64,000 nt of DNA from an uncultured Saprospiraceae bacterium (GTDB lineage: Bacteria > Bacteroidota > Bacteroidia > Chitinophagales > Saprospiraceae), in assembly GCA_937942435.1 (NCBI GenBank), contig CALDEM010000014.1, positions 1-64,000 on the forward strand. Reading direction: 5' to 3'. The position numbers and the translations under genes were made by a program. Positions 20,901 through 64,000 of this stretch are shown here, one piece after another (within the stretch, counting starts at the first letter, position 1; every line of letters starts with the position of its first letter). The notes below the pieces were generated by a model. It had not been told where the DNA came from, ran no database searches, and saw only the letters and a program-made list of their open reading frames with translations.

Positions 20901-21263
20901 TTCTTTGTTATCGAGTGTCAGATGAGACTCGGGCGTAGGCATTATGATCTCCGGATCACTACTGAGTATGCGCTGTATCAACTCGCTACGTCCTGGACTG
21001 CCGCTAACGATTGCTTTACCGTTTCCCGAAGCAAGTGAAGAGAATGCCTCTTCTTCAATATCCAACCTCAACTCACCCTGTCTGGCATCATCATCCGGCC
21101 CGTGACAACTAAAGCATCGATCTGATAAGATGGGTCGGACATGATAATTAAAGTCGATCTCATCTGGCAAAGAAGTCAAAGCGATCTGTACCTCTTCTGG
21201 AAGAGGCTTTGAGCAACCGAAGCACATCAGGAGCAATATCACTAAGTAAGCGTACATCTTCAT
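17952..21263 (-). CDS. Planctomycete-type cytochrome c / DUF1549 / LamG-like / DUF1553 protein
   Basis: RCFSCHGPDDDARQGELRLD, DLTGLPPTIEEIDAFL, NPLTARVTVNRYWQMIFGKGIV, NREVCTIKRENTSTPLQALVLMNDP; central LamG-like segment. Confidence 0.93.
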   Translation of the reverse strand: MKMYAYLVILLLMCFGCSKPLPEEVQIALTSLPDEIDFNYHVRPILSDRCFSCHGPDDDARQGELRLDIEEEAFSSLASGNGKAIVSGSPGRSELIQRILSSDPEIIMPTPESHLTLDNKEKAILYKWIDQGAEWKDHWAFDAPAKSELPEAIDGWTAINEIDHFVHNKIREAGLEPSKEADKERLLRRVTMDLTGLPPTIEEIDAFLADDAIDAYQKVVDRLLASKEAAERLTMEWLDVSRYADSHGLHADGYRLMWPWRDWVIDAFDKNMPYDEFALWQIAGDLLPNATKEQELATAFNRNHTMTAEGGAIDEEFRLAYVFDRTETVATAFQGLTMNCARCHDHKFDPISQKEYYQMNAFFNNVKELGMTGDDGNYGPMLALPSVEQQMKLERIQQSIKEQEEELSMTEQEVIAKADFISSLSDVNVKNKEVLYAPFEHIRERRSSDAKKKRVTDYGEYLNSHIIDNNADITSAALTESVEGKFGKALKFTGEYDEVFLQSVPNFEKNESFSTSLWINTTKQDSAKTQMLLCTSGEKNNYWRGWEFDLDGQNRLNVRLIHSLPHNYFHVQSLESVHINQWTHVGFTYDGSEKGGGIKIFINGLPIETITPYDHLYKSIKPIAGVPAADFTKQINTKAFDDMELAYKQIRRPVKVAKSYRAYTGEYGVFKGAIDEIRIFDEELSIAEMAVVSRAVEDNNIDLSTEWQKNHAVNQDYKSNNLKRKLTKARAQKQELIESIPEVMVMSELSQPRPMYIYNRGDYTQPTDEVSAEIPEVLPAFSEELPKNRLGLAKWLFQDDNPLTARVTVNRYWQMIFGKGIVTTPGDFGIQGALPSHPDLLDWLAVDFKENGWDVKRLLRQLVMSSTYRQSSIIRKDDLEIDPENKWLARGSTYRLPAEMIRDNALAASGLLVKETGGASVRPYQPEGLWIEKSFFSKILLNYKQDKGEDLYKRSMYTFIRRTAPPPAMTIFDQPNREVCTIKRENTSTPLQALVLMNDPQFVEASRVLAERIQLEIGQDISSQIQYAFRLATGRSVSKEELVIFEKIYQDQYEIFKKDQQASDGLLNVGETIADRSLDKSQTAALAMVTSTMLNHDEAYMKR

Positions 21264-51201: not shown

Positions 51202-51843
51202 TTATAGGTCAGGTGTGAGACGGCCAGCCGTGTTTTTTGATTTATAGAGAAGGAAGATCACAATCATCAATATGAAGATTGATAGACCACCCAACAGGAC
51301 ATAGTTGCCTTTCAGCAATGATCCCTGTCCATATGAGGTCTTTTGCCCTTTTACAGCGATATCTATGATGTTAGTAAGCACTTCTTGATCCCCATATCTT
51401 ACTGATCCTTGATTTTCAATACTGATATTATCGGCTTGGTCGGGTGAGAAAGTAACTTCATACTCCGATGAGATATCTACCTTTTCACCAACCTTAGTGA
51501 TTGATATGGCATGTATATCGACTGTCGCATCATCAGTAGTCACAATTACCCCATGAGAAGTCTTCGTGGTATTGGGCACTAATGACAGATGTGGACTCCT
51601 TTTTGAATTATGAAAAGTCAAGTTGTGGCTTAAAGAGTCATAAGATGATATTTGCGTAGAGATGAGCACTCTATCTCCTGAATCTACCCAACCATCTAAT
51701 TGATTATCGAGGGAGAGCTCCCAAGTTTGTGTAGTAAATACGTCTTGCGCTACCATTTGCTCATAAGCAAATAGTATAAATAGGTACGTTATATATAATG
51801 CTCTCACGGCAGGCAATAGGTGATTAACATATCCAACCAGCAA
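51202..51843 (-). CDS. Exported DUF11-like single-domain protein with C-terminal TM, paralog of 52750..53376
   Basis: TWELSLDNQLDGWVDSGDRVLISTQI...; C-terminal TM YVLLGGLSIFILMIVIFLLYKSKN. Confidence 0.6.
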   Translation of the reverse strand: MLVGYVNHLLPAVRALYITYLFILFAYEQMVAQDVFTTQTWELSLDNQLDGWVDSGDRVLISTQISSYDSLSHNLTFHNSKRSPHLSLVPNTTKTSHGVIVTTDDATVDIHAISITKVGEKVDISSEYEVTFSPDQADNISIENQGSVRYGDQEVLTNIIDIAVKGQKTSYGQGSLLKGNYVLLGGLSIFILMIVIFLLYKSKNTAGRLTPDL

Positions 51844-52227: not shown

Positions 52228-52722
52228 ATGAGTAAAGCTTTATACAGCGCATTCTCCTTAACCTTATTGTTTTTGTTCACGAGCTTAAGTGTTCAAGCTC
52301 AATCTCCAACAGTCATATCCATATCTACCATACCAGATCAAGCTGATTTTATAGCAAACATTGGCCCTTCAACTTGTACTACAATTAGACTTGGAGAGAC
52401 CATAAGGTTTGAAGCTTCAGGAGCATGTGGAGAAACCTTTTCATTGTCTAATGATCGCGGAATAACAACGCTAATGTCAGCGACAAATCCTGACCTTTCA
52501 TTTGATTTTACTTTTACAGAAACGGGTGAGTATACACTTTTTTGTAATGGCTCAACAGACCCAGCGTTACCTACAGCCAGCTCTGTGGCGCTATGTATAA
52601 TAGTATCAGATCCCGTACCAACAGTCGGAGAATGGGGCGTAATTACGCTGGGACTACTTATGTTGATCTTTATGGTAGCGGCTTATAAGACGCAAAGTCA
52701 TTCGACTACTGTTCTATCTTAA
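52228..52722 (+). CDS. Secreted protein with IPTL-CTERM-like sorting signal
   Basis: Signal peptide; C-terminus PVPTVGEWGVITLGLLMLIFMVAAYKTQ. Confidence 0.7.
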   Translation: MSKALYSAFSLTLLFLFTSLSVQAQSPTVISISTIPDQADFIANIGPSTCTTIRLGETIRFEASGACGETFSLSNDRGITTLMSATNPDLSFDFTFTETGEYTLFCNGSTDPALPTASSVALCIIVSDPVPTVGEWGVITLGLLMLIFMVAAYKTQSHSTTVLS

Positions 52723-52749: not shown

Positions 52750-53361
52750 TTAGGAATGTTGACTACTTAATCTTCTAACCTTTAGACGATTGCTTATGAA
52801 GCCAAAGAGCATCCCAGTCAATAGTATCAATAATAGTGAAAGTGCATTGTCAAATAGGCCTGCTTTATCGCTTGTTGCCAAATAGGTTGATTTGACAGGG
52901 ATACTTATTTCGTTGGTCTCGACTGTTTGAGTTGGACTCGATAACTGTGTCTTATTGTATATGTGGGTTACGTGATTAGCATCAAAGTTGGCAATGGCAT
53001 CAAATGTAATGGTAGCCTCATCCCAACTTGCCTGAAGTTGGAGACCTTCAATGAGCATAATTTTATCTACTCCTTCATTACCAGAAGAAATGGTACCCAT
53101 ACTAGTTGATACTGAACCCTCAACAAGGGAAAAATGTGGATCGGCAAAAGCGTTTTGTACAGCTATAGTCTGAGACGATCGATCGTTATATGTGATGACT
53201 ATGGTATTAGAAATTATGTCACCGTTGTCTACCCAACCATTATTGTTGAGATCAGAAGTGAGCTCCCATGATTGTTCTCCATATAATTCTTGGCTAATAG
53301 AGGCTTGTGCACATAGCAGTGTTGCTAGGACAATTAATAGTATCGTTTTCATAGTTTTCAT
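52750..53361 (-). CDS. Exported DUF11-like single-domain protein with C-terminal TM, paralog of 51202..51843
   Basis: QSWELTSDLNNNGWVDNGDIISNTIVITYNDRS...; C-terminal TM; likely start MKTMKTILL, the listed ORF start is TTG. Confidence 0.6.
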   Translation of the reverse strand: MKTMKTILLIVLATLLCAQASISQELYGEQSWELTSDLNNNGWVDNGDIISNTIVITYNDRSSQTIAVQNAFADPHFSLVEGSVSTSMGTISSGNEGVDKIMLIEGLQLQASWDEATITFDAIANFDANHVTHIYNKTQLSSPTQTVETNEISIPVKSTYLATSDKAGLFDNALSLLLILLTGMLFGFISNRLKVRRLSSQHS

Positions 53362-53377
53362 CGTAAGGATAGTCAAA

Positions 53378-53500: not shown

Positions 53501-54382
53501 GTGAATTTTATCCTTTCCAACATATCTACGATCCTTCAGGTATTGCTGTTTTTAATCATGTTGGGTATGGGGATGACACTTACTGTAGGTGACTTTAAGA
53601 GGGTCGCCTTTTATCCAAAGGCTGCTATCGTAGGCCTTTTTAATCAACTTATCCTATTGCCTATTATTGGTTTTGCGATTGCGGTTGCGCTACCGATAGA
53701 ACCTGTTTTTGCCGTGGGATTGATGGTAGTAGCTGCTTGCCCAGGAGGTGCGACATCTAATCTCATCTCTCACTTGTCCAAAGGAGATACGGCACTTTCT
53801 ATTTCGATGACTGCAGTGTCTAGTATTATCACCATAGTGACGATTCCTTTCATCATTAATTTTGCTTTGGGTTATTTTTTAGAAGGAGATGCAGTAGCGA
53901 TTCAGCTACCGGTTATCCCTACTATTATTAATATCCTAAAGCTCACAGCACTACCTGTTTTGATGGGTATGATGATCAATCACTACCTGCCTAAGTTTGT
54001 ATTGTGGGCCAAAAAGCCAGTGGCGATTGGGTCTGGTGTAATTATTATAATAGCTCTTGGGGTCATGGTCTTGAAATTAGATCAGATCGGTGATGTCTGG
54101 GATTTTATAAAGGCGGTTTTTTGGAGTGTCCTTGTATTAAATCTTGTAACACTGGCAGTGGGCTTTTTCTCCGCGAGAATCCTAAAACTCAGCGCACCTC
54201 AGGCTGCGACTATATCTATAGAAAGTAGCATGCAGAACAATGTTTTAGGTATGGCCATAGCTACTTCTGCAACGATGCTTGATAACCCGCTCATGGCAGC
54301 TCCTGCGGGTGTGTATGGTATCGTGATGTGTACATCAGGTGTCATACTCATTTACATATTTAGAAGTATCATCCATGATTAG
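53501..54382 (+). CDS. Bile acid:sodium symporter (BASS) family transporter
   Basis: MLGMGMTLTVGDFKRV, AACPGGATSNLISHLSKGDTALSISMTA, IESSMQNNVLGMAIA; GTG start. Confidence 0.92.
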   Translation: MNFILSNISTILQVLLFLIMLGMGMTLTVGDFKRVAFYPKAAIVGLFNQLILLPIIGFAIAVALPIEPVFAVGLMVVAACPGGATSNLISHLSKGDTALSISMTAVSSIITIVTIPFIINFALGYFLEGDAVAIQLPVIPTIINILKLTALPVLMGMMINHYLPKFVLWAKKPVAIGSGVIIIIALGVMVLKLDQIGDVWDFIKAVFWSVLVLNLVTLAVGFFSARILKLSAPQAATISIESSMQNNVLGMAIATSATMLDNPLMAAPAGVYGIVMCTSGVILIYIFRSIIHD

Positions 54383-55112
54383 ACCTAATTATAATACTAG
54401 CGATACTACAGTCATGATAGTTGGAGGAAACAGCGGGATAGGCGTTGCACTTTCTAAGTTGCTTCTATCTATAGATGCAAGCGTCATTAGTATTGATATC
54501 CAATCGGATGCAACAGTAACTCATGAGCAGTTGATATATTATAAAGCTGATCCAAAGGCCAAGGCCGAATTAGAAAAGATAAAAGAGCAACTTGTCCAAA
54601 GTCAAGTGAGACTATATGGTCTGGTTAATCTTTCAGGAGCTATCAAATATTTTGGCCCTATTGAGACGGCTAGTGATCAAGATTGGGCGCTCACATATGA
54701 TATCAGCTTTCAGAGTTGTCTCAACAGTTGTCAAGTGTTTACAACTCTTTTGGATAAGAACGCTAAGAGCTCTATTGTTAACATGTCATCTGGATTAGCT
54801 TTTATAGGTCAGAAGAATTATGGCCCGTACTCGGCGGCTAAAGCTGCCATAGTAAGTCTAACCAAGACATTAGCGGCAGAGCTTGCACCTGATATAAGAG
54901 TTAATAGTGTTGCTCCCGGAGCTGTTGATACTGCGTTTTTAAAAAAAGAAGATGGGACTACAAGAGTTGATTTAGAAAAGTATAAACATCTAGTACCACT
55001 GGGTGAAATAGGTAAGCCAGAAGAAATTGCAAATGTGATTCTATATTTACTAAGTGAAGGGGCTTCTCATATCACTGGTGAGTGCATACATGTCAATGGA
55101 GGAGCTTCCTAA
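54375..55112 (+). CDS. Short-chain dehydrogenase/reductase
   Basis: VMIVGGNSGIGVALS, YGPYSAAKAAIVSLTKTLAAELAPDIRVNSVAPGAVDT. Confidence 0.92.
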   Translation: MIRPNYNTSDTTVMIVGGNSGIGVALSKLLLSIDASVISIDIQSDATVTHEQLIYYKADPKAKAELEKIKEQLVQSQVRLYGLVNLSGAIKYFGPIETASDQDWALTYDISFQSCLNSCQVFTTLLDKNAKSSIVNMSSGLAFIGQKNYGPYSAAKAAIVSLTKTLAAELAPDIRVNSVAPGAVDTAFLKKEDGTTRVDLEKYKHLVPLGEIGKPEEIANVILYLLSEGASHITGECIHVNGGAS

Positions 55113-55143: not shown

Positions 55144-55560
55144 TTACTTTTGCAACCAATCTCCGATACCGTAAGGATCTTCTAATGGCGCTGAGACGTG
55201 TTCATGTTTGATTTTCCAATCGTCTTCTACATGAGACATCACAAAGGTGCATCTAAATCGAGTTGTAAATTTTTTTTCGTCGACCAGTATAGCTATGTCA
55301 GTGATACCACCGACCCAGCCCATCGACCCACTTATCTCTTCAAATGGACCTTCAACCCAAGTCATACTCAGTAAGCTTATAGGAGAAGAGCTAAAGTCCT
55401 TCCAACCTTTAAAGATCTGACTACAACCTAAAGTAGAAAATCGAGGTCCTTCGAGTATAACATAAGTTTCTTCAGATAGAACATAAGCATCCTTGATGCC
55501 AACCATGTCTTTCTTCTTAACGGCGTCCCAGAATTTTTCTATTCTATTAGCTAACACCAT
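55144..55560 (-). CDS. SnoaL/NTF2-like protein
   Basis: RIEKFWDAVKKKDMVGIKDAY...TRFRCTFVMSHVEDDWKIKHEHVSAPL. Confidence 0.75.
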   Translation of the reverse strand: MVLANRIEKFWDAVKKKDMVGIKDAYVLSEETYVILEGPRFSTLGCSQIFKGWKDFSSSPISLLSMTWVEGPFEEISGSMGWVGGITDIAILVDEKKFTTRFRCTFVMSHVEDDWKIKHEHVSAPLEDPYGIGDWLQK

Positions 55561-55931
55561 TACATTTTATCTATATCATCAGCAATATCTTGTAGCGTCT
55601 TATCAGGATTTTCCAGTTCTTCCATTTCTTGTTGGACTATTCTTAGGATTCTACTGATGTATTCGCTATGCCATTGTTGGCGTTCATCCGCTATGTCTTT
55701 ATTTGCTGGTACATAGTTTTCTAATTCTTCACGAGTCATGATACCCTTCGCTTCAAGTATACGCTCTAGACTATCCACTCTTTCTCTTACAACTGCTAAC
55801 TCCATCCCTATAGCCATTGTGATATTGAGCACTCTTTCTATAGCCGGATCCTTAAAGAAGTATGGGCGTTTACCTTTAGGTTTATTGGAAGCGATGGAGA
55901 TATAATCTATTTCGGGATTTTCTTTACTCAC
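55560..55931 (-). CDS. Hypothetical helical protein in catabolic cluster
   Basis: Translationally coupled to the SnoaL-like gene; no recognised domain. Confidence 0.6.
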   Translation of the reverse strand: MSKENPEIDYISIASNKPKGKRPYFFKDPAIERVLNITMAIGMELAVVRERVDSLERILEAKGIMTREELENYVPANKDIADERQQWHSEYISRILRIVQQEMEELENPDKTLQDIADDIDKM

Positions 55932-55991
55932 AGTTGTTTCTAATTATTATGTGATATAATATCTTGAAGTTTATATTGGCAATACACTCGT

Positions 55992-57179
55992 CTATCTTTT
56001 CCAAGCACCAAATACATTCCAGATCGGGGACCTGCCATGATCTTCTGGCTCGTCTGCTTTCTGAGTGCCATCATCGAGGTCATTGATAGCTTTTGCTCCT
56101 ATTTGCATGTATTCATTTCGGTCAAAACCGCAGTCCTCCATCAGATCTTTAGGATCTATGTCATGCATCTTTGACCAGTAAGGCTCGCTGTTATTATAAG
56201 CATCCCAATCTCTGATCCACTGCTCGTAGAAGCTCATGTCATCAGTATACTGTGGTTGTTCTATATGCATAGTGATACCGTCTTTTTTTAAAGTACGATA
56301 CACTTCCTTCATGATATTGTAAATAGATTTGCCTCCTGTCTCATGCAAAAACATCGTAGTCTGTATCCAATCAAATGATTCAGCTTCAAATGGAAGATTA
56401 GAAGCCTCCGCTTGCATAAATGTTACATTTTCTATGCCTAGTGCAACCATGCGTGCATGACCATATTTTAACATCGGCCGCCCAGTGTCTATGGCTATAA
56501 TCTCAGCGTCTGGATATCTTCTTGCAATTGGAATAACGTTATGACCCATACCACATCCGATATCTAATATCCTCTTCGGCTGAAAATCAGGATAAGTAGT
56601 AGTCATCCAATCTGCCATCGCTTTTCCACCGCCATCACTGTACTTACCCAACAGGCCTGCTGTCGTTACAAATAGTCCTCCATCATAGTTTGCAGCATTT
56701 GAGACATCGCCCTCAAAAAGTTCTGTATGATAGCTCCCTGGCATGAGGTGATTGTCTACTGCAAGGAGGTATGGCGGAACCTTAACATCATCATTTAGGA
56801 TGAGCGAATTGGGTTTTTGTGCATTGAGTTTTTCAACTTTCTCTTTTAGCTTAAGCCCTTGTCTATACGTCAGAGACCGACCAGCTTGTTGTCTCATCTC
56901 CATGGTTGATCGTCGCATAGCTGACCATATCTGATAATGAGGATCATCTGACATAGCATCATCAACCTCATTCTTAGATTGAAAAGTTCTGCCTTTCTCT
57001 TTTTCAAATTTTGGCTTGACCCGATTCTCGTATGCGATCTTATTTCCTTGCGAGACATGGGCTAAGTGTTTGTTCAGGCTGGCTAGAAAATTGTAGCGCG
57101 CTTTCTCATCACTAGTGGTTTCTGGAAATACTTCGTGCTTCGCAATCTTATCATACGTAGGTGGTAGATTCTTTGCCAT
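55992..57179 (-). CDS. Class I SAM-dependent methyltransferase with ~180-aa N-terminal extension
   Basis: RILDIGCGMGHNVIPIARRYPDAEIIAIDTGRPML...FDWIQTTMFLHET. Confidence 0.88.
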   Translation of the reverse strand: MAKNLPPTYDKIAKHEVFPETTSDEKARYNFLASLNKHLAHVSQGNKIAYENRVKPKFEKEKGRTFQSKNEVDDAMSDDPHYQIWSAMRRSTMEMRQQAGRSLTYRQGLKLKEKVEKLNAQKPNSLILNDDVKVPPYLLAVDNHLMPGSYHTELFEGDVSNAANYDGGLFVTTAGLLGKYSDGGGKAMADWMTTTYPDFQPKRILDIGCGMGHNVIPIARRYPDAEIIAIDTGRPMLKYGHARMVALGIENVTFMQAEASNLPFEAESFDWIQTTMFLHETGGKSIYNIMKEVYRTLKKDGITMHIEQPQYTDDMSFYEQWIRDWDAYNNSEPYWSKMHDIDPKDLMEDCGFDRNEYMQIGAKAINDLDDGTQKADEPEDHGRSPIWNVFGAWKR

Positions 57180-57232
57180 ACTTCTTTTGTTATGTGTATT
57201 ACGTTAATGTAATTATATCAATTGTGATTGTC

Positions 57233-58852
57233 TTAACTGACGTAACCAAGTTTTTTATCCATCTGGATCGCGCTCTGTTTTCGTTTAGAGACTGGGCCAT
57301 AACCAGCACCACCAGGGAGAGTAAGTATAAGCTCTTCTCCAGGATGAAGTTTATCAAGTCCCTTTGCAGGAAATGTTCTTTCTGGAATAATTTGATATCC
57401 TCCCATTGCTCCGTTCTCTCCTTGCAAGAGACCTTGTGCAGCCGTAACTGTTTTCTCTGTTAAGAGTGATATATTGATGCTTTCTTCACCTATATTCTTA
57501 AATCCAAATCGTTGCCCTAGTCCCCCTCTGTATTGTCCTTGACCGGCAGTATCAGGTAGTAAGCATTTTTGTGTAACCATGACAGGCACGTCATTTTCTA
57601 GAACTTCTATAGGTACGTTGGCAACATTTGTAGGGAAGCTTAAGACATGTTCGCCATCAAGACCTGGCCTAGCACCATATCCTCCATTTAAGAAGAAGTA
57701 CTCAACGTATTCTTCACCTTTATGAGTACCATTGAGTACAACACACCAACATGCGCTACCACAGTCGGCTTGTACTTTATCCGGTATGGCTTGAGCCAAG
57801 GCACCGAAGACAACAGAATGAAGCATGTTGCCAGTGATATTACGTGCGCCTAATGGCGCGGGTTTCTGAGCATTGAGCAAACTGCCTTCTGGGGCCCAGA
57901 CTTTGATGGGTTTGAAAGCACCATCATTGTTAGGAACCTCTGGACTAAACGCACACTTGATCGGATAGGCTGTATATGCATATGTATAGTTGAGGACAGC
58001 ATTGATACTCAATGGATGCTGACCAGATGTGCCAGTATAGTCGACGCTGATATTGCTCCCTTTTATTTCTACATCTATCTCAAAGTGACAGCCGGTACCA
58101 AGTCCATCACCATCAGTCTCATAGGTGTATTTGTAATTACCGTCTGGTGCCTTTGTTATTGCTTCTCTCATAGCTTTTTCGGAAGCATTAATGATGAGAT
58201 CAGAAACTTCTTCGAGATCCGTCATATCATTTTCGTGCATGAGATTCTTGAGGGATTTAATCCCTTGAGTATTTGCGGCTACTTGCGCTTTTATATCACC
58301 TAGAGTCTGCCGTGAAGCTCTAACATTGTGATCTATGATGTTAAATAAAGTCTCGTTGGGCACACCCTTGATATAGAGTTTTGTCGGTGGCACCATGAGT
58401 CCTTCTTCATACAGATCTCTTGCTCCAGCGCCCCAAAGTACTCCTCCCATATCAGGAGAATGAGCGATGGTGCCTATAAAGCCGATGATACTGTCATTAT
58501 GAAATATCGGAGATACGATGCCAATATCTGGCTTGTGACCGGCACAAAGCCATGGGTTATTGGTCATCACTACATCTCCCTCTTCCCATTGGTCTAATGG
58601 GAAATAATCCTTTATCAATGCCTTGGTTAACATAGGTATCACGCCTAAAAACGACGGAACGGAGATACTTGATTGGGCAATAGCTCTTCCATGAGCATCC
58701 ATCAGTACTACAGCAAAGTCATTAGACTCTCTTGTCACCGTTGAAAACGATGTCCTCTGAAGAGTTGTGCCCGCTTCGTCAACTATGCTGATCAGTCTCG
58801 ACCATAGTATGCTCAGAGAGATGGAATCAATTTTTTGATCTATTAATGACAT
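57233..58852 (-). CDS. hyuB: Hydantoinase B/oxoprolinase family protein
   Basis: TSFSTVTRESNDFAVVLMDAHGRAIAQS, NNPWLCAGHKPDIGIVSPIF, GGLGQRFGF, LPGGAGYGP. Confidence 0.92.
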   Translation of the reverse strand: MSLIDQKIDSISLSILWSRLISIVDEAGTTLQRTSFSTVTRESNDFAVVLMDAHGRAIAQSSISVPSFLGVIPMLTKALIKDYFPLDQWEEGDVVMTNNPWLCAGHKPDIGIVSPIFHNDSIIGFIGTIAHSPDMGGVLWGAGARDLYEEGLMVPPTKLYIKGVPNETLFNIIDHNVRASRQTLGDIKAQVAANTQGIKSLKNLMHENDMTDLEEVSDLIINASEKAMREAITKAPDGNYKYTYETDGDGLGTGCHFEIDVEIKGSNISVDYTGTSGQHPLSINAVLNYTYAYTAYPIKCAFSPEVPNNDGAFKPIKVWAPEGSLLNAQKPAPLGARNITGNMLHSVVFGALAQAIPDKVQADCGSACWCVVLNGTHKGEEYVEYFFLNGGYGARPGLDGEHVLSFPTNVANVPIEVLENDVPVMVTQKCLLPDTAGQGQYRGGLGQRFGFKNIGEESINISLLTEKTVTAAQGLLQGENGAMGGYQIIPERTFPAKGLDKLHPGEELILTLPGGAGYGPVSKRKQSAIQMDKKLGYVS

Positions 58853-58865
58853 ATAGGATTCACCT

Positions 58866-58892
58866 AAATTAGTTAATAAAGTTAACTAATTT
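58866..58892. promoter_or_regulatory. 27-bp perfect inverted repeat upstream of hyuB
   Basis: AAATTAGTTAA-TAAAG-TTAACTAATTT. Confidence 0.7.
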
Positions 58893-58966
58893 TTTTGATT
58901 GCGTTTTCTTTTATATCTGTTAACGTTTGGTCCACTCTAACCACGTATATAGATATCTATTGATCC

Positions 58967-61039
58967 TTACATCTCGATGATGATATTCTTATCCTTATCT
59001 AGATAAAAGGTGCCATTTAACCCTACGATGACGGTACTCTCTTTTTCCTCAATTATAGCAGGCCCATTGATTTTTTCATTTGCCCTCAAACTGTAGCGAT
59101 CATAGACATTGCAGTTGAGGTAACCAGTTTCTTTAAAATATGCTTTACGCTGTCCTTTTATAGCGATTGTCTTATCTACAGCATCTGATTTTTGAACTAT
59201 CTCAATAGAAGGTGTTGGTCCTTTTACTTGGACCCTCCAAGTGACCATCTCAAGTGGGACTTCAGAGATGATCCGACTGTATCTAAGTGTATATTCTTTT
59301 TCAAATCTACTTTTTATTTCTTCTTTTAGATCAGCTGATAAAACACCATCTGGTACTTCAATTGTGATCTCATGTCCTTGACCCTCATATCGCATATCCA
59401 CTACTCTGGATATCTCATGATTTTTTTCCTTGCTGTTGTCTGTGACAAATCGATTGCCCAGTTGAGTCATCTCCGCAAGAAAATCATTAACATAGTTCCA
59501 ATCGAGGTCATCCAAGAGCTTTATATGACTATGAATCTTTTCAAATGCAACAGGTGATACTAAAAATCCAAGTGCGGAAGCAACACCTGCCCCAACAGGT
59601 ATAATCATAGATGGAGCATTGAGCAGTCTTGCAACGCCAAAGGCGTGTACCGGCCCCGCTCCTCCAAAAGCCATCATACTAAAATGTCGGGGGTCCATAC
59701 CTTTTTCGAGTATATGGACTCTTGCAGCATTGGCCATGTTTTCATTGACGATGCGGTGGACTCCCATCGCTGCTTCTTCTACTGATATGCCTAGCGGCTT
59801 TGCTATGGTATTTCTAATCGCTTCAACTGCTTTTTGACGACTCAGTTGCATGGTGCCACCAAGGAAGTATGATTCGTTGAGATAGCCGAGCACAAGGTCT
59901 GCATCTGTGACGGTCGCTTCAGTGCCTCCCAAATTATAACATGCTGGTCCTGGAGTTGATGACGCACTATCTGGTCCAACTGTTAATAGACCAAGTTCAT
60001 TGACACGAGCGATACTTCCACCTCCAGCTCCGATTTCAATCATATCTATCACAGGGATTCTTACAGGAAGTCCACTTCCTTTTTTGAATCTTTTGACTCT
60101 TCCAGCTTCAAAGTGATGAGTGATTTCGGGTTTGCCTTCATGTATTAATGAAGCTTTGGCTGTGGTGCCTCCCATGTCAAAGCATAAGAGGTTTTTGTAT
60201 TTTAATTTGTTACCAATAAAAACGCCAGCCATCGACCCTCCAGCAGGCCCAGATTCTAATAGGTGAATAGGAATCTTTATTGCTCCTTCTAATGTAGTCA
60301 AGCTACCATTAGAAATCATAATGAGCAGCTGACCCGTAAAGTTTTTATGATTTAGTTTTTGTTTCAGTCGATCGAGATATTGATCAGTTAGAGGTTGTAC
60401 ATATGCATTCATAGCTGTAGCAGACGAGCGTTCATACTCTCTTATCTCCGGCATGATATTAGACGAGAGAGATATACTTACTTCTGGGTGATGCTTGGCT
60501 AAGTATTTTCCAATTGTTTGTTCGTGCTCTACATTGGCAAATGAGTTGAGCAAACAAACCGCAACGGCCTGAACATCTTCTTTTTCAATGAGTTGACTTA
60601 TTGAGGCCAGTTCGCTTTTCCGTAAAGGTGTTACCACATTGCCATGAGTGTCAACTCTTTCTGTTATACCTATCCTAAGATCTCTTGAGATAAGTGGTTT
60701 TGGCATAGTGAGAAATAAATCGTAGATATCATATCGCAATTCTCTTCCTATTTCTAATACGTCTTCAAACCCCCTTGTAGACACAAGTGCTGTCTTTGCT
60801 CCCTTTCTTTCTATAATAGCGTTAGTGACCAAAGTTGTTCCATGAACTATAGTTTCTACTTTTGAAATGTCTAAACCAAATCTTTTTTCTAATTCTTCTA
60901 TTCCATTAAATATACCGTTAGTCGGATCGGGATAAGTGGTCAAAGATTTGGCAAAGAAAATACCCTCACTCTTCTCATCGTATAAAACGAAGTCTGTAAA
61001 GGTGCCGCCTATATCAATTCCTAGTTTCAATTTTGACAA
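58967..61039 (-). CDS. hyuA: Hydantoinase A/oxoprolinase family protein (TTG start)
   Basis: KLGIDIGGTFTDFVLYDE, VHGTTLVTNAIIERKGAKTALVSTRGFED, LESGPAGGSMAG, CFDMGGTTAKA, AFGGAGPVHAFGVA. Confidence 0.94.
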   Translation of the reverse strand: MSKLKLGIDIGGTFTDFVLYDEKSEGIFFAKSLTTYPDPTNGIFNGIEELEKRFGLDISKVETIVHGTTLVTNAIIERKGAKTALVSTRGFEDVLEIGRELRYDIYDLFLTMPKPLISRDLRIGITERVDTHGNVVTPLRKSELASISQLIEKEDVQAVAVCLLNSFANVEHEQTIGKYLAKHHPEVSISLSSNIMPEIREYERSSATAMNAYVQPLTDQYLDRLKQKLNHKNFTGQLLIMISNGSLTTLEGAIKIPIHLLESGPAGGSMAGVFIGNKLKYKNLLCFDMGGTTAKASLIHEGKPEITHHFEAGRVKRFKKGSGLPVRIPVIDMIEIGAGGGSIARVNELGLLTVGPDSASSTPGPACYNLGGTEATVTDADLVLGYLNESYFLGGTMQLSRQKAVEAIRNTIAKPLGISVEEAAMGVHRIVNENMANAARVHILEKGMDPRHFSMMAFGGAGPVHAFGVARLLNAPSMIIPVGAGVASALGFLVSPVAFEKIHSHIKLLDDLDWNYVNDFLAEMTQLGNRFVTDNSKEKNHEISRVVDMRYEGQGHEITIEVPDGVLSADLKEEIKSRFEKEYTLRYSRIISEVPLEMVTWRVQVKGPTPSIEIVQKSDAVDKTIAIKGQRKAYFKETGYLNCNVYDRYSLRANEKINGPAIIEEKESTVIVGLNGTFYLDKDKNIIIEM

Positions 61040-61060
61040 TTAGTTTATTAGTTAATTAGC
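61038..61060. promoter_or_regulatory. Imperfect copy of the hyuB inverted repeat abutting the hyuA start codon
   Basis: AATTAGTTTATTAGTTAATTAGC compared with AATTAGTTAATAAAGTTAACTAATT. Confidence 0.45.
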
Positions 61061-61479
61061 TGATGTGTTGATTGTGCAAAATGCGATAAAATGTTTCACC
61101 TCTATTACAAATTTCTGTTTCACTAGAGGCTATTATTTTTGATAGTACTTTCTGAATGGAGAGTAATTCGCTAATTAGAGTTTTACCCTCAGGTTATCCT
61201 TCACTTCTATGACATAAAGTCAATCAGTACTCTGTTTCATTTGCTTCTTTATCTGCTATTTTTAATTTGTGTATAAAATCTTTATTGCTTTACGCTTTTT
61301 GAGCTTCTCTTACATTGGGCCCTATTGACGTTCCTGATTTAAGAAGTTATCTGGCTATCATATATTTTTTCTTGCTCTCTTATTCTTCACAAAATGTAGT
61401 AATCCTTAGCACAAACTCAAGGGTTAGATCGATAATCAGATTTTTCTTTTCATTAGTCATAAGCTCAATAATCACCTAA

Positions 61480-62310
61480 TCAATGATACTCCTCTCCTCC
61501 ACTAACATTCATGGCTTCTCCAGTGATGTATGCTGCTTGATCGGATGCTAAGAAAGCAACTGCTTTAGCTATATCTTCTACCATGCCTGTGCGGCCCAAT
61601 GGGTTTTTATCTTTTATGGCTTGTAAGTAGGTGTCATAGTCTTGACCGAGTTTTTCACTAAAGAACTTGTTTTGCCAATGACCGAGACCTGTTGTTATGT
61701 GGTTAGGGCATACTGCGTTGACCCTTATGCCAAAGGTGCCAAGTTCTACCGCGTTGGATCTAGTCAGTCCGACCATGCCGTGCTTGGAAGCAGTATATGC
61801 TGCCGCAAATGGAAAACCTGATTTGGCTGCTTGGCTTGCGATATTGATAATAGAACCACCGCCATTATCTTTCATTTGGATGGCAGCATGTTTAGAGCAT
61901 AAGAAAGCCCCTTTCAAATTGACATCTAAAACGGCATCCCAACTTTCAGATTTAAATTCTGTAAATGGTTCCATGATGTATCCTACACCGGCGTTGTTGA
62001 CCATGATGTCGAGTCCACCCATTGTCCTTACAGTGTGTTGAACCAATTGACTTACTTGATCTTCAAATCTTACATCGCAAACAACGGCTATTGCTTTAAC
62101 ACCAAGTAACTTAGCAGCGTCAACTATGTCGCTCATATCTGAAGATATACCGATGTGTTCTTTTGAAAAGTTGTCCCCCTTAGGAGCACCGATATCTGTT
62201 ACTACAACATTGCAACCTTCTTGAGCAAGAAGCATGATGATCGCTTCTCCTATACCTCCTTTTCTTCCAGATCCAGTTACAATGGCCGTCTTTCCCTTGA
62301 GCTGATACAT
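61480..62310 (-). CDS. Short-chain dehydrogenase/reductase
   Basis: TAIVTGSGRKGGIGEAI, NNAGVGYIMEP, YTASKHGMVGLTRSNAVELGTFGIRVNAVCPNHITT. Confidence 0.94.
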   Translation of the reverse strand: MYQLKGKTAIVTGSGRKGGIGEAIIMLLAQEGCNVVVTDIGAPKGDNFSKEHIGISSDMSDIVDAAKLLGVKAIAVVCDVRFEDQVSQLVQHTVRTMGGLDIMVNNAGVGYIMEPFTEFKSESWDAVLDVNLKGAFLCSKHAAIQMKDNGGGSIINIASQAAKSGFPFAAAYTASKHGMVGLTRSNAVELGTFGIRVNAVCPNHITTGLGHWQNKFFSEKLGQDYDTYLQAIKDKNPLGRTGMVEDIAKAVAFLASDQAAYITGEAMNVSGGEEYH

Positions 62311-62322
62311 CTTCTATTCTAT

Positions 62323-62634
62323 TTACGCGAATTGTTCAGAAACAATGAATGTCGGATTGTCAGTGAATTCTTGAAACTCTGCAGCAATCTTTTGCATGTG
62401 ATCGGTAGATACTTCTTCTCCAAGCTTGGCCATGTCATTGACTTCTATAACTTCGCAATATTGATATGGAGATTTTTCTTCAGTACCCATAATGTTGCCG
62501 AGTCGATAGACCTTAAAGTTGTCTACAGAAACTAACCCTTTTACAGTTGGGACATCAGTAGTTTGCGCCCACTTCTCATATGCTTCTTTAGAAGCCTCAT
62601 CCTTTAAATTGAATAATACAATTAGTGCTGCCAT
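62323..62634 (-). CDS. HapK/REDY-like small ferredoxin-fold protein
   Basis: LIVLFNLKDEASKEAYEKWAQTTDVPTVKGLVSVDNFKVYRL. Confidence 0.5.
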   Translation of the reverse strand: MAALIVLFNLKDEASKEAYEKWAQTTDVPTVKGLVSVDNFKVYRLGNIMGTEEKSPYQYCEVIEVNDMAKLGEEVSTDHMQKIAAEFQEFTDNPTFIVSEQFA

Positions 62635-62665
62635 GTTAAACGATTGTAACTTTGATTATAATAAA

Positions 62666-63427
62666 TTATGTTCTTGCTGATAAGAACTCTTTGCTTCTGA
62701 CTTTTATAAGCCCTTGTACTGAGTTAAGAATAAATCTTGCTCCTTTATCCATAAGCACCTGAGCTTGCTCACTTGTGCCAGCTACAGTACCGAACCACTT
62801 GCCTGCATCAAGGATTGTTGCAAAAATATCATCGAGCATCTTCTTTACTTCATCATGTCCAGGTCCGTCATAGAAACCCATAGACATAGCGAGATCACGT
62901 GGACCAATTATAAAACCATCGACACCTTCAAGAGCACACATGGCTTTGAGGTTCTTAACACAGTCTAATGTTTCTATCTGTGGCATAACTAATGTTTGCT
63001 CGTTGGCAAATTGCACATATTCTAATTGTGACATCTCACCCTGCATATAATCGGACGCTCTAACAGGGCCTAGACCTCTCCTTCCGAGAGGGGGATATTT
63101 GATGGCATCTATTAAGATTTTTACATCCTCTACAGTATCTATAGTTGGCATCATTACACCCATGACTCCTGCATCCATGTACTGTAAGATTAACTTGGGA
63201 TCTACGCTTCGTATCCGAGCAAGTGGTGTACAGTCTCTTAACTCACATGCGCGAACCATATTGGTTACATCAGATATAGATATACCACCATGTTCTCCAT
63301 CGATCATATAAAAGTCATAATTGTTAAGACCGATGTACTCGCAGATGACTGGGTCGGTTGTTGGAGATATAACACCAAAACCAACTTTTTCTGATTCGAT
63401 TCTTTTTTTCAGTTTGTTTTCCCTCAT
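62666..63427 (-). CDS. HpcH/HpaI aldolase/citrate lyase family protein
   Basis: DFYMIDGEHGG, GVMGVMMPTIDTVEDVK, YPPLGRRGLGP, VMPQIET, GVDGFIIGPRDLAMSMGF. Confidence 0.92.
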   Translation of the reverse strand: MRENKLKKRIESEKVGFGVISPTTDPVICEYIGLNNYDFYMIDGEHGGISISDVTNMVRACELRDCTPLARIRSVDPKLILQYMDAGVMGVMMPTIDTVEDVKILIDAIKYPPLGRRGLGPVRASDYMQGEMSQLEYVQFANEQTLVMPQIETLDCVKNLKAMCALEGVDGFIIGPRDLAMSMGFYDGPGHDEVKKMLDDIFATILDAGKWFGTVAGTSEQAQVLMDKGARFILNSVQGLIKVRSKEFLSART

Positions 63428-63444
63428 AAGTCCTATTCTTCTAA

Positions 63445-63969
63445 TTATCCTATGGGTTGGCCTTTTGCAATTTTGTCTCTTACAAAGTTCATCAGCCCAC
63501 CCGCACTTTCTACTTCTGCGACAAAAGGTGCAGCTGGCACAGAATTAAATGATTTGTTGGTTGTGAGATTGGTGATGTTGCCAGTAGAAGGATCATATTC
63601 TAATTCATCTCCTGTGTTACATCCCTTTGCTATGTCTTTGCTGGTTACGAATGGTAATCCATAGTTTATAGCATTGCGAAATTGTAAACGAGCAAAACTA
63701 TCTGCAAACACGGCTTTGATGCCTGCACCCATAAGTCCAGTGATTACATGCTCTATACTTTTGCCGCCTCCGGCGAAATTATGCGCAGCTACAATAAAGG
63801 TGTATCCTCCATCCTTGAACCCATTCTCCTTATTAAACTCTTCTTTAACTCCTGCCATTACCCACTTACTATTTTCTTCAGGATTAATAGGAGATATCCA
63901 ATATTCTTGAATAATGATATTGTAAGCCATCACGTAGTCATCTGCCACCCAACATTTTCCTCTTATCAT
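63445..63969 (-). CDS. LeuD/aconitase small-subunit-like (swivel domain) protein
   Basis: IVAAHNFAGGGKSIEHVITGLMGAGIKAVFADSFARLQFRNAINYGLPFVT. Confidence 0.8.
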   Translation of the reverse strand: MIRGKCWVADDYVMAYNIIIQEYWISPINPEENSKWVMAGVKEEFNKENGFKDGGYTFIVAAHNFAGGGKSIEHVITGLMGAGIKAVFADSFARLQFRNAINYGLPFVTSKDIAKGCNTGDELEYDPSTGNITNLTTNKSFNSVPAAPFVAEVESAGGLMNFVRDKIAKGQPIG

Positions 63970-64000
63970 AATTATAACTTTTTAAATATTCAATTCTTTG

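Follow-up and report, generated by a model that had tools for sequence, protein, structure and literature searches.

The closest described counterparts of the locus analysed here each correspond to one part of it: the two-subunit caprolactamase CapAB of Pseudomonas jessenii, along with 5-oxoprolinase and N-methylhydantoinase; allantoinase PuuE and other PuuE-family cyclic amide hydrolases; the LeuCD enzymes isopropylmalate isomerase and homoaconitase, including those of the LeuD/DmdB type; the RipA-RipB-RipC route of itaconate degradation via mesaconyl- and citramalyl-CoA; and the HapK/REDY proteins of prodigiosin-type clusters. The locus is a run of nine open reading frames on the minus strand at positions 55144-63969 of the window, which spans bases 1-64,000 of contig CALDEM010000014.1 (C14; 128,918 bases) from the 76% complete genome of an uncultured Saprospiraceae bacterium. 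Our results identify it as a real, widespread catabolic operon of which we found no published description, its enzymes belonging to known families and one or more of them being unusual; literature searches returned nothing on this gene combination, on HapK together with a hydantoinase or on plasmid pJE1. We propose, with moderate confidence, that this conserved operon serves the catabolism of an N-containing ring compound carrying a methyl (or alkyl) branch.

Families were assigned by Pfam and NCBIfam profile searches, with a BASS transporter and some outlying genes being named by eye. A first-pass annotation had listed nine minus-strand genes with named families; the reading frames were found at those coordinates and Pfam agrees with the families, which it recovers for eight of the nine genes, the ninth (a helical protein) matching none. 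On the minus strand, the genes are:

63445..63969, minus strand: LeuD-like small subunit of a non-canonical subfamily (Aconitase_C, PF00694, E 7e-7; motif survey)
62666..63427, minus strand: HpcH/HpaI class II aldolase/lyase (HpcH_HpaI, E 4e-31)
62323..62634, minus strand: HapK/REDY-like small alpha/beta-barrel protein (PF11639, E 2e-10, 41.7 bits, cut-off 25; PDB 2jdj, E 5e-7)
61480..62310, minus strand: short-chain dehydrogenase/reductase (SDR) (adh_short_C2, E 9e-59)
58967..61039, minus strand: HyuA, ATP-binding subunit of the hydantoinase/oxoprolinase/caprolactamase type (Hydantoinase_A, E 7e-86)
57233..58852, minus strand: HyuB, predicted metal-binding hydrolase subunit (Hydantoinase_B, E 4e-141)
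55992..57179, minus strand: S-adenosylmethionine (SAM) methyltransferase (MT) with an N-terminal helical domain (Methyltransf_25, E 1e-19)
55560..55931, minus strand: helical 'orphan' protein of ~120 residues, directly downstream of MT (no family)
55144..55560, minus strand: SnoaL_3/NTF2-like protein (SnoaL_3, E 1e-8)

The gaps between these genes are 12-114 bases, except for 440 bases between SDR and HyuA, and the SnoaL gene shares one base with the preceding helical-protein gene.

A profile scan with MT over ~85,000 species genomes yielded 246 relatives. The analysis used the best 80 of them; as MT was the search query, all locus counts are conditional on its presence. The closest named MT relatives, at up to 82% identity, are from Saprospiraceae metagenome-assembled genomes. 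Gene maps reveal a conserved order, LeuC-(FAO)-LeuD-HpaI-HapK-SDR-HyuA-(flavoprotein)-HyuB-MT-orphan-SnoaL (FAO, flavin amine oxidase), in Saprospiraceae, Flavobacteriaceae (Maribacter, Aquimarina, Croceitalea) and Chitinophagales. The eight genes from LeuD through HpaI, HapK, SDR, HyuA, HyuB and MT to the orphan lie on one strand in 33 of the 80 loci, SnoaL is present in 48, and median intergenic gaps across loci are mostly below 110 bases. Gene order is conserved far beyond chance, in support of the first reading of the genes as one uncharacterised catabolic operon, for which a comparison with other Bacteroidota had been proposed. Alphaproteobacteria (Hyphomonas, Hirschia, Brevundimonas, Marinicaulis and others) have a reduced core of SDR-HapK plus MT-orphan, which also occurs on plasmids of Sphingomonas, Sphingobium and Novosphingobium, and cyanobacteria have MT-orphan-SnoaL with lipocalin, aldehyde dehydrogenase, dihydropyrimidinase-like or nitrilase genes.

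The step for which the evidence is best is the predicted opening of a ring by HyuAB. HyuA carries both phosphate motifs (DIGGTFTD at 9 and DMGGT at 288), with DxGGTxTD present in 37 of 39 copies and DxGGT in all 39, and the metal-ligand motifs of HyuB (RESNDF, GHKPD and AHSPDMGG) are kept in 51/51 copies. The phosphate and metal-site motifs are those defined for CapAB, whose metal ligands have been assigned as Asp, His-x-x-Asp and His (PMC8453981). The operon pair shares with CapAB, 5-oxoprolinase and N-methylhydantoinase the HyuA/HyuB two-subunit architecture and the phosphate motifs, and with CapB the metal ligands Asp, His, Asp, His; it differs from CapAB in its adenosine motif, in lying in an entirely different operon and in scoring far below the equivalog cut-offs (533.9 bits for HyuA and 201.7 for HyuB, against 1000 for CapA/CapB). 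SDR is followed by HyuA in 36 loci, every one of them from Bacteroidota, whereas ten loci of Alphaproteobacteria have a PuuE/allantoinase-family hydrolase (PuuE1) in this place, albeit one scoring 244 bits against the PuuE cut-off of 424.6. HyuA and PuuE1 occur together in none of 82 loci, the three alphaproteobacterial loci with HyuA being without PuuE1. Because the ATP- and metal-binding residues are nearly all intact and a PuuE-type enzyme displaces HyuA after SDR, the best-supported assignment from sequence is that HyuAB hydrolyses cyclic amides/imides in an ATP-dependent manner and is not a carboxylase. The displacement by PuuE is the strongest functional clue to HyuAB, and, with the motifs, it supports the ring opening that had initially been put forward as a plausible step.

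Less conventional chemistry is suggested for the aconitase-type enzyme. The operon LeuD has AGGGKSIEH in place of GCGSSREH and DYVMAY in place of DxVDTD; in the motif survey GKSIE(H) was found in 43/43 operon copies, as opposed to the aconitase-type GSSRE(H), and the N-terminal DTD motif is changed to VMA or VMS in all of them. GSSRE is kept in all eight copies of LeuD2, the second LeuD of these regions, and in all four outside comparators, from plasmids. The Ser and Arg of GSSRE are catalytic in aconitases. Thus, although the operon LeuCD shares the fold family, the two-subunit organization and the cluster cysteines with isopropylmalate isomerase and homoaconitase (LeuC1 retains the Fe-S cysteines C301, C361 and C364, in CTNGR and CASC), its LeuD has lost both motifs and scores below the cut-off for all isopropylmalate isomerase/homoaconitase equivalogs. 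Since the catalytic Ser/Arg motif is missing, ordinary isomerisation, as first envisaged for this step, appears unlikely, and hydration or dehydration employing an active-site lysine is suggested as an alternative.

The HpaI protein keeps the active-site His and metal Glu/Asp motifs of its family, and scores 158.5 bits against 368.8 for the 4-hydroxy-2-oxoheptanedioate aldolase equivalog. Seven loci of Alphaproteobacteria, all without HpaI, have RipB/Ich-like and RipC/Ccl-like genes close to the MT core. These genes resemble the itaconate Rip route; they are absent, however, from the bacteroidotal loci examined, and their scores (231/340 and 207/375) are under the equivalog cut-offs. Taken with the second module of the region, CaiB-LeuCD-HMGL (see below), the two lyase sets would suggest that an unsaturated, methyl-branched dicarboxylate is an intermediate.

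MT has the motif I sequence ILDIGCGMGH, a motif shared by 76 of 78 copies, and its AlphaFold model (predicted local distance difference test score, pLDDT, 85.8) has a Rossmann fold, placing it in the class I SAM family. It is preceded by a conserved N-terminal helical domain of ~180 residues, for which no clear solved relative was found, Foldseek returning methyltransferases at partial coverage only. The helical protein encoded directly after MT, at a median gap of 10 bases, is not the orphan it was first taken for, being recognised with MT in 60 of the 80 loci. An alignment of 23 diverse sequences contains 22 invariant residues, and searches of Pfam, NCBIfam and solved structures gave no known family or relative; the protein defines a new conserved family and probably serves as a partner subunit of MT. 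The operon HapK is like the HapK/REDY proteins of prodigiosin-type clusters in passing PF11639 and in matching 2jdj, but its context is catabolic and no gene of prodigiosin biosynthesis was recognised in its vicinity.

Several further genes bear on the operon or adjoin it. Strands are given where assigned, and coordinates beyond 64,000 are those of the contig:

63982..65328, minus strand: FAO1, Tat-signal flavin amine oxidase (PF01593, E 1.9e-46), its 3' end lying in the window at 63982..64000
65343-66608: LeuC, beyond FAO1 (NCBIfam matches)
66728-67237: DUF3598-like lipocalin (PF12204)
~86.2-90.6 kb: DUF1838 genes (locus L004, 3224-4108 and 6625-7590)
61060..61463, minus strand: broken four-helix-bundle reading frame, S23-type by eye, with five in-frame stops
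53501..54382, plus strand: BASS-type transporter, convergent neighbour (family by eye)
54378..55112 (start approximate), plus strand: second SDR (SDR2), convergent neighbour

The operon had been predicted to continue past base 64,000 into a LeuC-like gene, and it does so, though with the FAO1 gene separating LeuD from LeuC. The next ~35 kb (some genes assigned by eye) encode redox proteins, i.e. a cytochrome c, a second flavin amine oxidase, a fumarate/urocanate-reductase-like flavoprotein and a quinone oxidoreductase, together with CpeT-family proteins, many VOC proteins, E1/E2 2-oxoacid dehydrogenase-like proteins, an aldehyde dehydrogenase, a TonB-type receptor, MFS transporters, two DUF1838 proteins, and a second LeuCD pair (LeuCD2) with an HMG-CoA-lyase-like (HMGL) gene. 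The VOC proteins were considered as extradiol dioxygenases and rejected, their domain, inspected by eye, being without the second His.

The second module, CaiB-LeuCD-HMGL, is common to Bacteroidota and Alphaproteobacteria. A CaiB-LeuC-LeuD-HMG-CoA lyase unit was also seen by itself in unrelated surroundings, on a Peribacillus frigoritolerans plasmid (locus L197, 6252-10420), where it adjoins LLM flavin monooxygenase and riboflavin kinase genes. Nitrilase, dihydropyrimidinase and isochorismatase-type genes recur near operon loci. In Maribacter vaceletii (L110, 1146-3668) and also in Hirschia (L116), a tandem pair of PuuE-type genes stands beside an isochorismatase-family gene, an arrangement that looks like a further unit for cyclic-amide hydrolysis.

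DUF1838 was found above the cut-off in all nine MT-bearing genomes and in none of the 290 others among 299 sampled genomes of the order, as well as in 14/14 MT-bearing genomes of other groups. Its model has a beta-rich fold with no informative structural relative, and only one paper was found on it in the literature. Links are weaker for the BASS transporter and SDR2, which had been proposed to converge on the operon and supply its substrate: their convergent plus-strand position is correct, but they occur within 10 kb in only 6/80 and 3/80 loci, respectively, BASS recurring beside the operon in some Saprospiraceae and Maribacter. The minus-strand frame between SDR and HyuA, in which no obvious frameshift was seen, is a broken gene lodged in the operon and falls outside the conserved set; the SDR-HyuA gap in relatives is usually 75 bases (median). 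A distant second copy lies on contig C98 at 20920-21204 (32% identity, one TGA). Elsewhere in the window, 52228-52722 (plus strand) encodes a secreted protein ending in PTVGEWG, a transmembrane segment and a basic tail, which resembles an IPTL-type sorting signal, and 51202-51843 and 52750-53376 (both minus strand) encode a related secreted pair with the common N-terminal-region pattern WEL..D.N.NGWVD.GD.

In the pathway that we propose, the Tat-type flavin amine oxidase, SDR and the fumarate/urocanate-reductase-like flavoprotein, with the barrel proteins HapK, SnoaL, DUF3598-like, DUF1838 and VOC, would prepare or bind the ring, after which HyuAB is predicted to open a cyclic amide, imide or ureide at the expense of ATP. 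Judging from the enzyme families and the RipB/RipC parallel, the opened, deaminated product, likely an unsaturated dicarboxylate-like compound, would be hydrated by the non-canonical LeuCD and then cleaved by the HpaI-type lyase to pyruvate and a second fragment; some alphaproteobacteria may use RipB/RipC-type enzymes in place of LeuCD-HpaI. MT and its small helical partner would constitute one enzyme. The outline originally suggested, ring opening followed by isomerisation and aldol-type cleavage, is partly supported, with its first step having the best support and isomerisation, as first worded, not being supported.

Some observations weigh against this pathway. MT is its most conserved member, yet has no explained role in it. 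The adenosine motif GxxPGP is not matched by HyuA, which has SSTPGP at 360, the commonest copies having Ser or Ala in place of the first Gly. The exchange of PuuE1 for HyuA is largely confounded with phylum, a difficulty that the three alphaproteobacterial exceptions relieve only in part, and the split between LeuCD-HpaI and RipB/RipC is confounded with phylum. HpaI-family enzymes usually cleave 4-hydroxy-2-oxo acids, and a simple alkylmalate is not one.

Opening of an N-containing ring combined with methyl-branched acid chemistry fits tetrapyrrole maleimides, other imides or lactams, or ureides. The first of these would be a special case of the proposed pathway, in which the breakdown of bilins or chlorophyll yields an oxidised pyrrole (hematinic acid, or methylvinyl- or methylethylmaleimide), the imide ring is opened by HyuAB or PuuE, and LeuCD1-HpaI and LeuCD2-HMGL-CaiB each take one kind of methyl-alkylmaleate. 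Such a role is tentative and, on balance, rather unlikely. It would explain why a single region has two LeuCD branches in parallel, along with lyases for methyl-branched acids, and why the cluster has pigment-binding-type folds (CpeT, HapK, DUF3598), and is consistent with the presence of the operon in algae-associated and cyanobacterial genomes and with the location of DUF1838 within a phycobiliprotein gene region in two cyanobacteria. That neighbourhood, however, was seen in only 2/15 cyanobacterial loci with the same DUF1838 type and in 0/20 other DUF1838 loci. CpeT was dropped as a tetrapyrrole clue for want of specificity, occurring in 69 of the 299 genomes of the order and being common without the operon; heme oxygenase was dropped as the start of the pathway, with one clear and two marginal matches in 18 non-cyanobacterial operon genomes, none recognised near the operon. 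In Nostoc sp. LEGE 12450 (L125, 9642-10508; a phycoerythrin region) and in locus L164, DUF1838 stands within phycobiliprotein gene regions that also hold HEAT-repeat and CpeS-type lyase genes, a setting not conserved in the 13 other loci examined. The bilin link through DUF1838 and Nostoc is a lead only. A fuller version, bacterial mineralisation of oxidised pyrroles, in which periplasmic flavoenzymes and pigment-binding barrels dismantle the tetrapyrrole, HyuAB/PuuE opens the maleimides, a Lys-for-Ser aconitase-fold hydratase hydrates the alkylmaleate and a lyase follows, seems to us doubtful. Oxidised pyrroles might nonetheless be named, very tentatively, as the most interesting candidate substrate.

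Alternatively, the ring could belong to a larger natural product and be a ureide, such as a hydantoin or dihydropyrimidine. HyuAB, or enzymes of the PuuE or dihydropyrimidinase type, would then open it, with nitrilase/isochorismatase-type decarbamoylation as the final stage. The displacing enzymes do lie nearest to allantoinases (AllB, at 230 bits, being like PuuE under its cut-off) and, among solved structures, N-methylhydantoinase comes closest to HyuA, but imide and lactam hydrolases belong to the same families and the adjoining methyl-branched dicarboxylate enzymes are atypical of ureide catabolism, making such a substrate unlikely.

The first-pass annotation had left open a carboxylase function for HyuAB, in which case the pair might activate an enolisable ketone as a carboxylase or kinase, like acetone and acetophenone carboxylases, the other genes serving ketone-acid catabolism without nitrogen chemistry. 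HyuA is indeed homologous to acetophenone carboxylase gamma and to acetone carboxylase beta. The acetophenone carboxylase scores (347 bits for HyuA against gamma, and 96 bits for HyuB) are nevertheless lower than those for caprolactamase, the scores of 347 and 233 bits for the acetone/acetophenone carboxylase equivalogs fall well short of the required 1500 and 1250, neither Pfam nor NCBIfam revealed a third carboxylase subunit in the operon, and a PuuE-type hydrolase takes the same position; ketone activation is thus disfavoured and highly improbable.

A biosynthetic or pigment-modifying cluster is barely credible. Secondary metabolism does often employ MT, HapK, SnoaL and SDR families, and cyanobacterial MT-orphan-SnoaL lies once (Nostoc, L079, 10114-12184) ~6 kb from DDG-synthase-like and O-methyltransferase-like genes (by eye). 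This mycosporine-type adjacency, however, is confined to one of three cyanobacterial loci, leading us to reject mycosporine amino acids, and the neighbours of the operon include a TonB-type receptor, MFS, CaiB, LeuCD, HMGL, RipB/RipC and aldehyde dehydrogenase.

The spread of the operon over Bacteroidota, Alphaproteobacteria and, in part, cyanobacteria, together with the large conserved region in which it lies, suggests that its substrate is an abundant natural one. The operon ties DUF1838, the N-terminal domain of MT, its helical partner, DUF3598-like lipocalins and HapK to one pathway, and the replacement of the catalytic Ser and Arg in its aconitase-type subunit suggests new chemistry.

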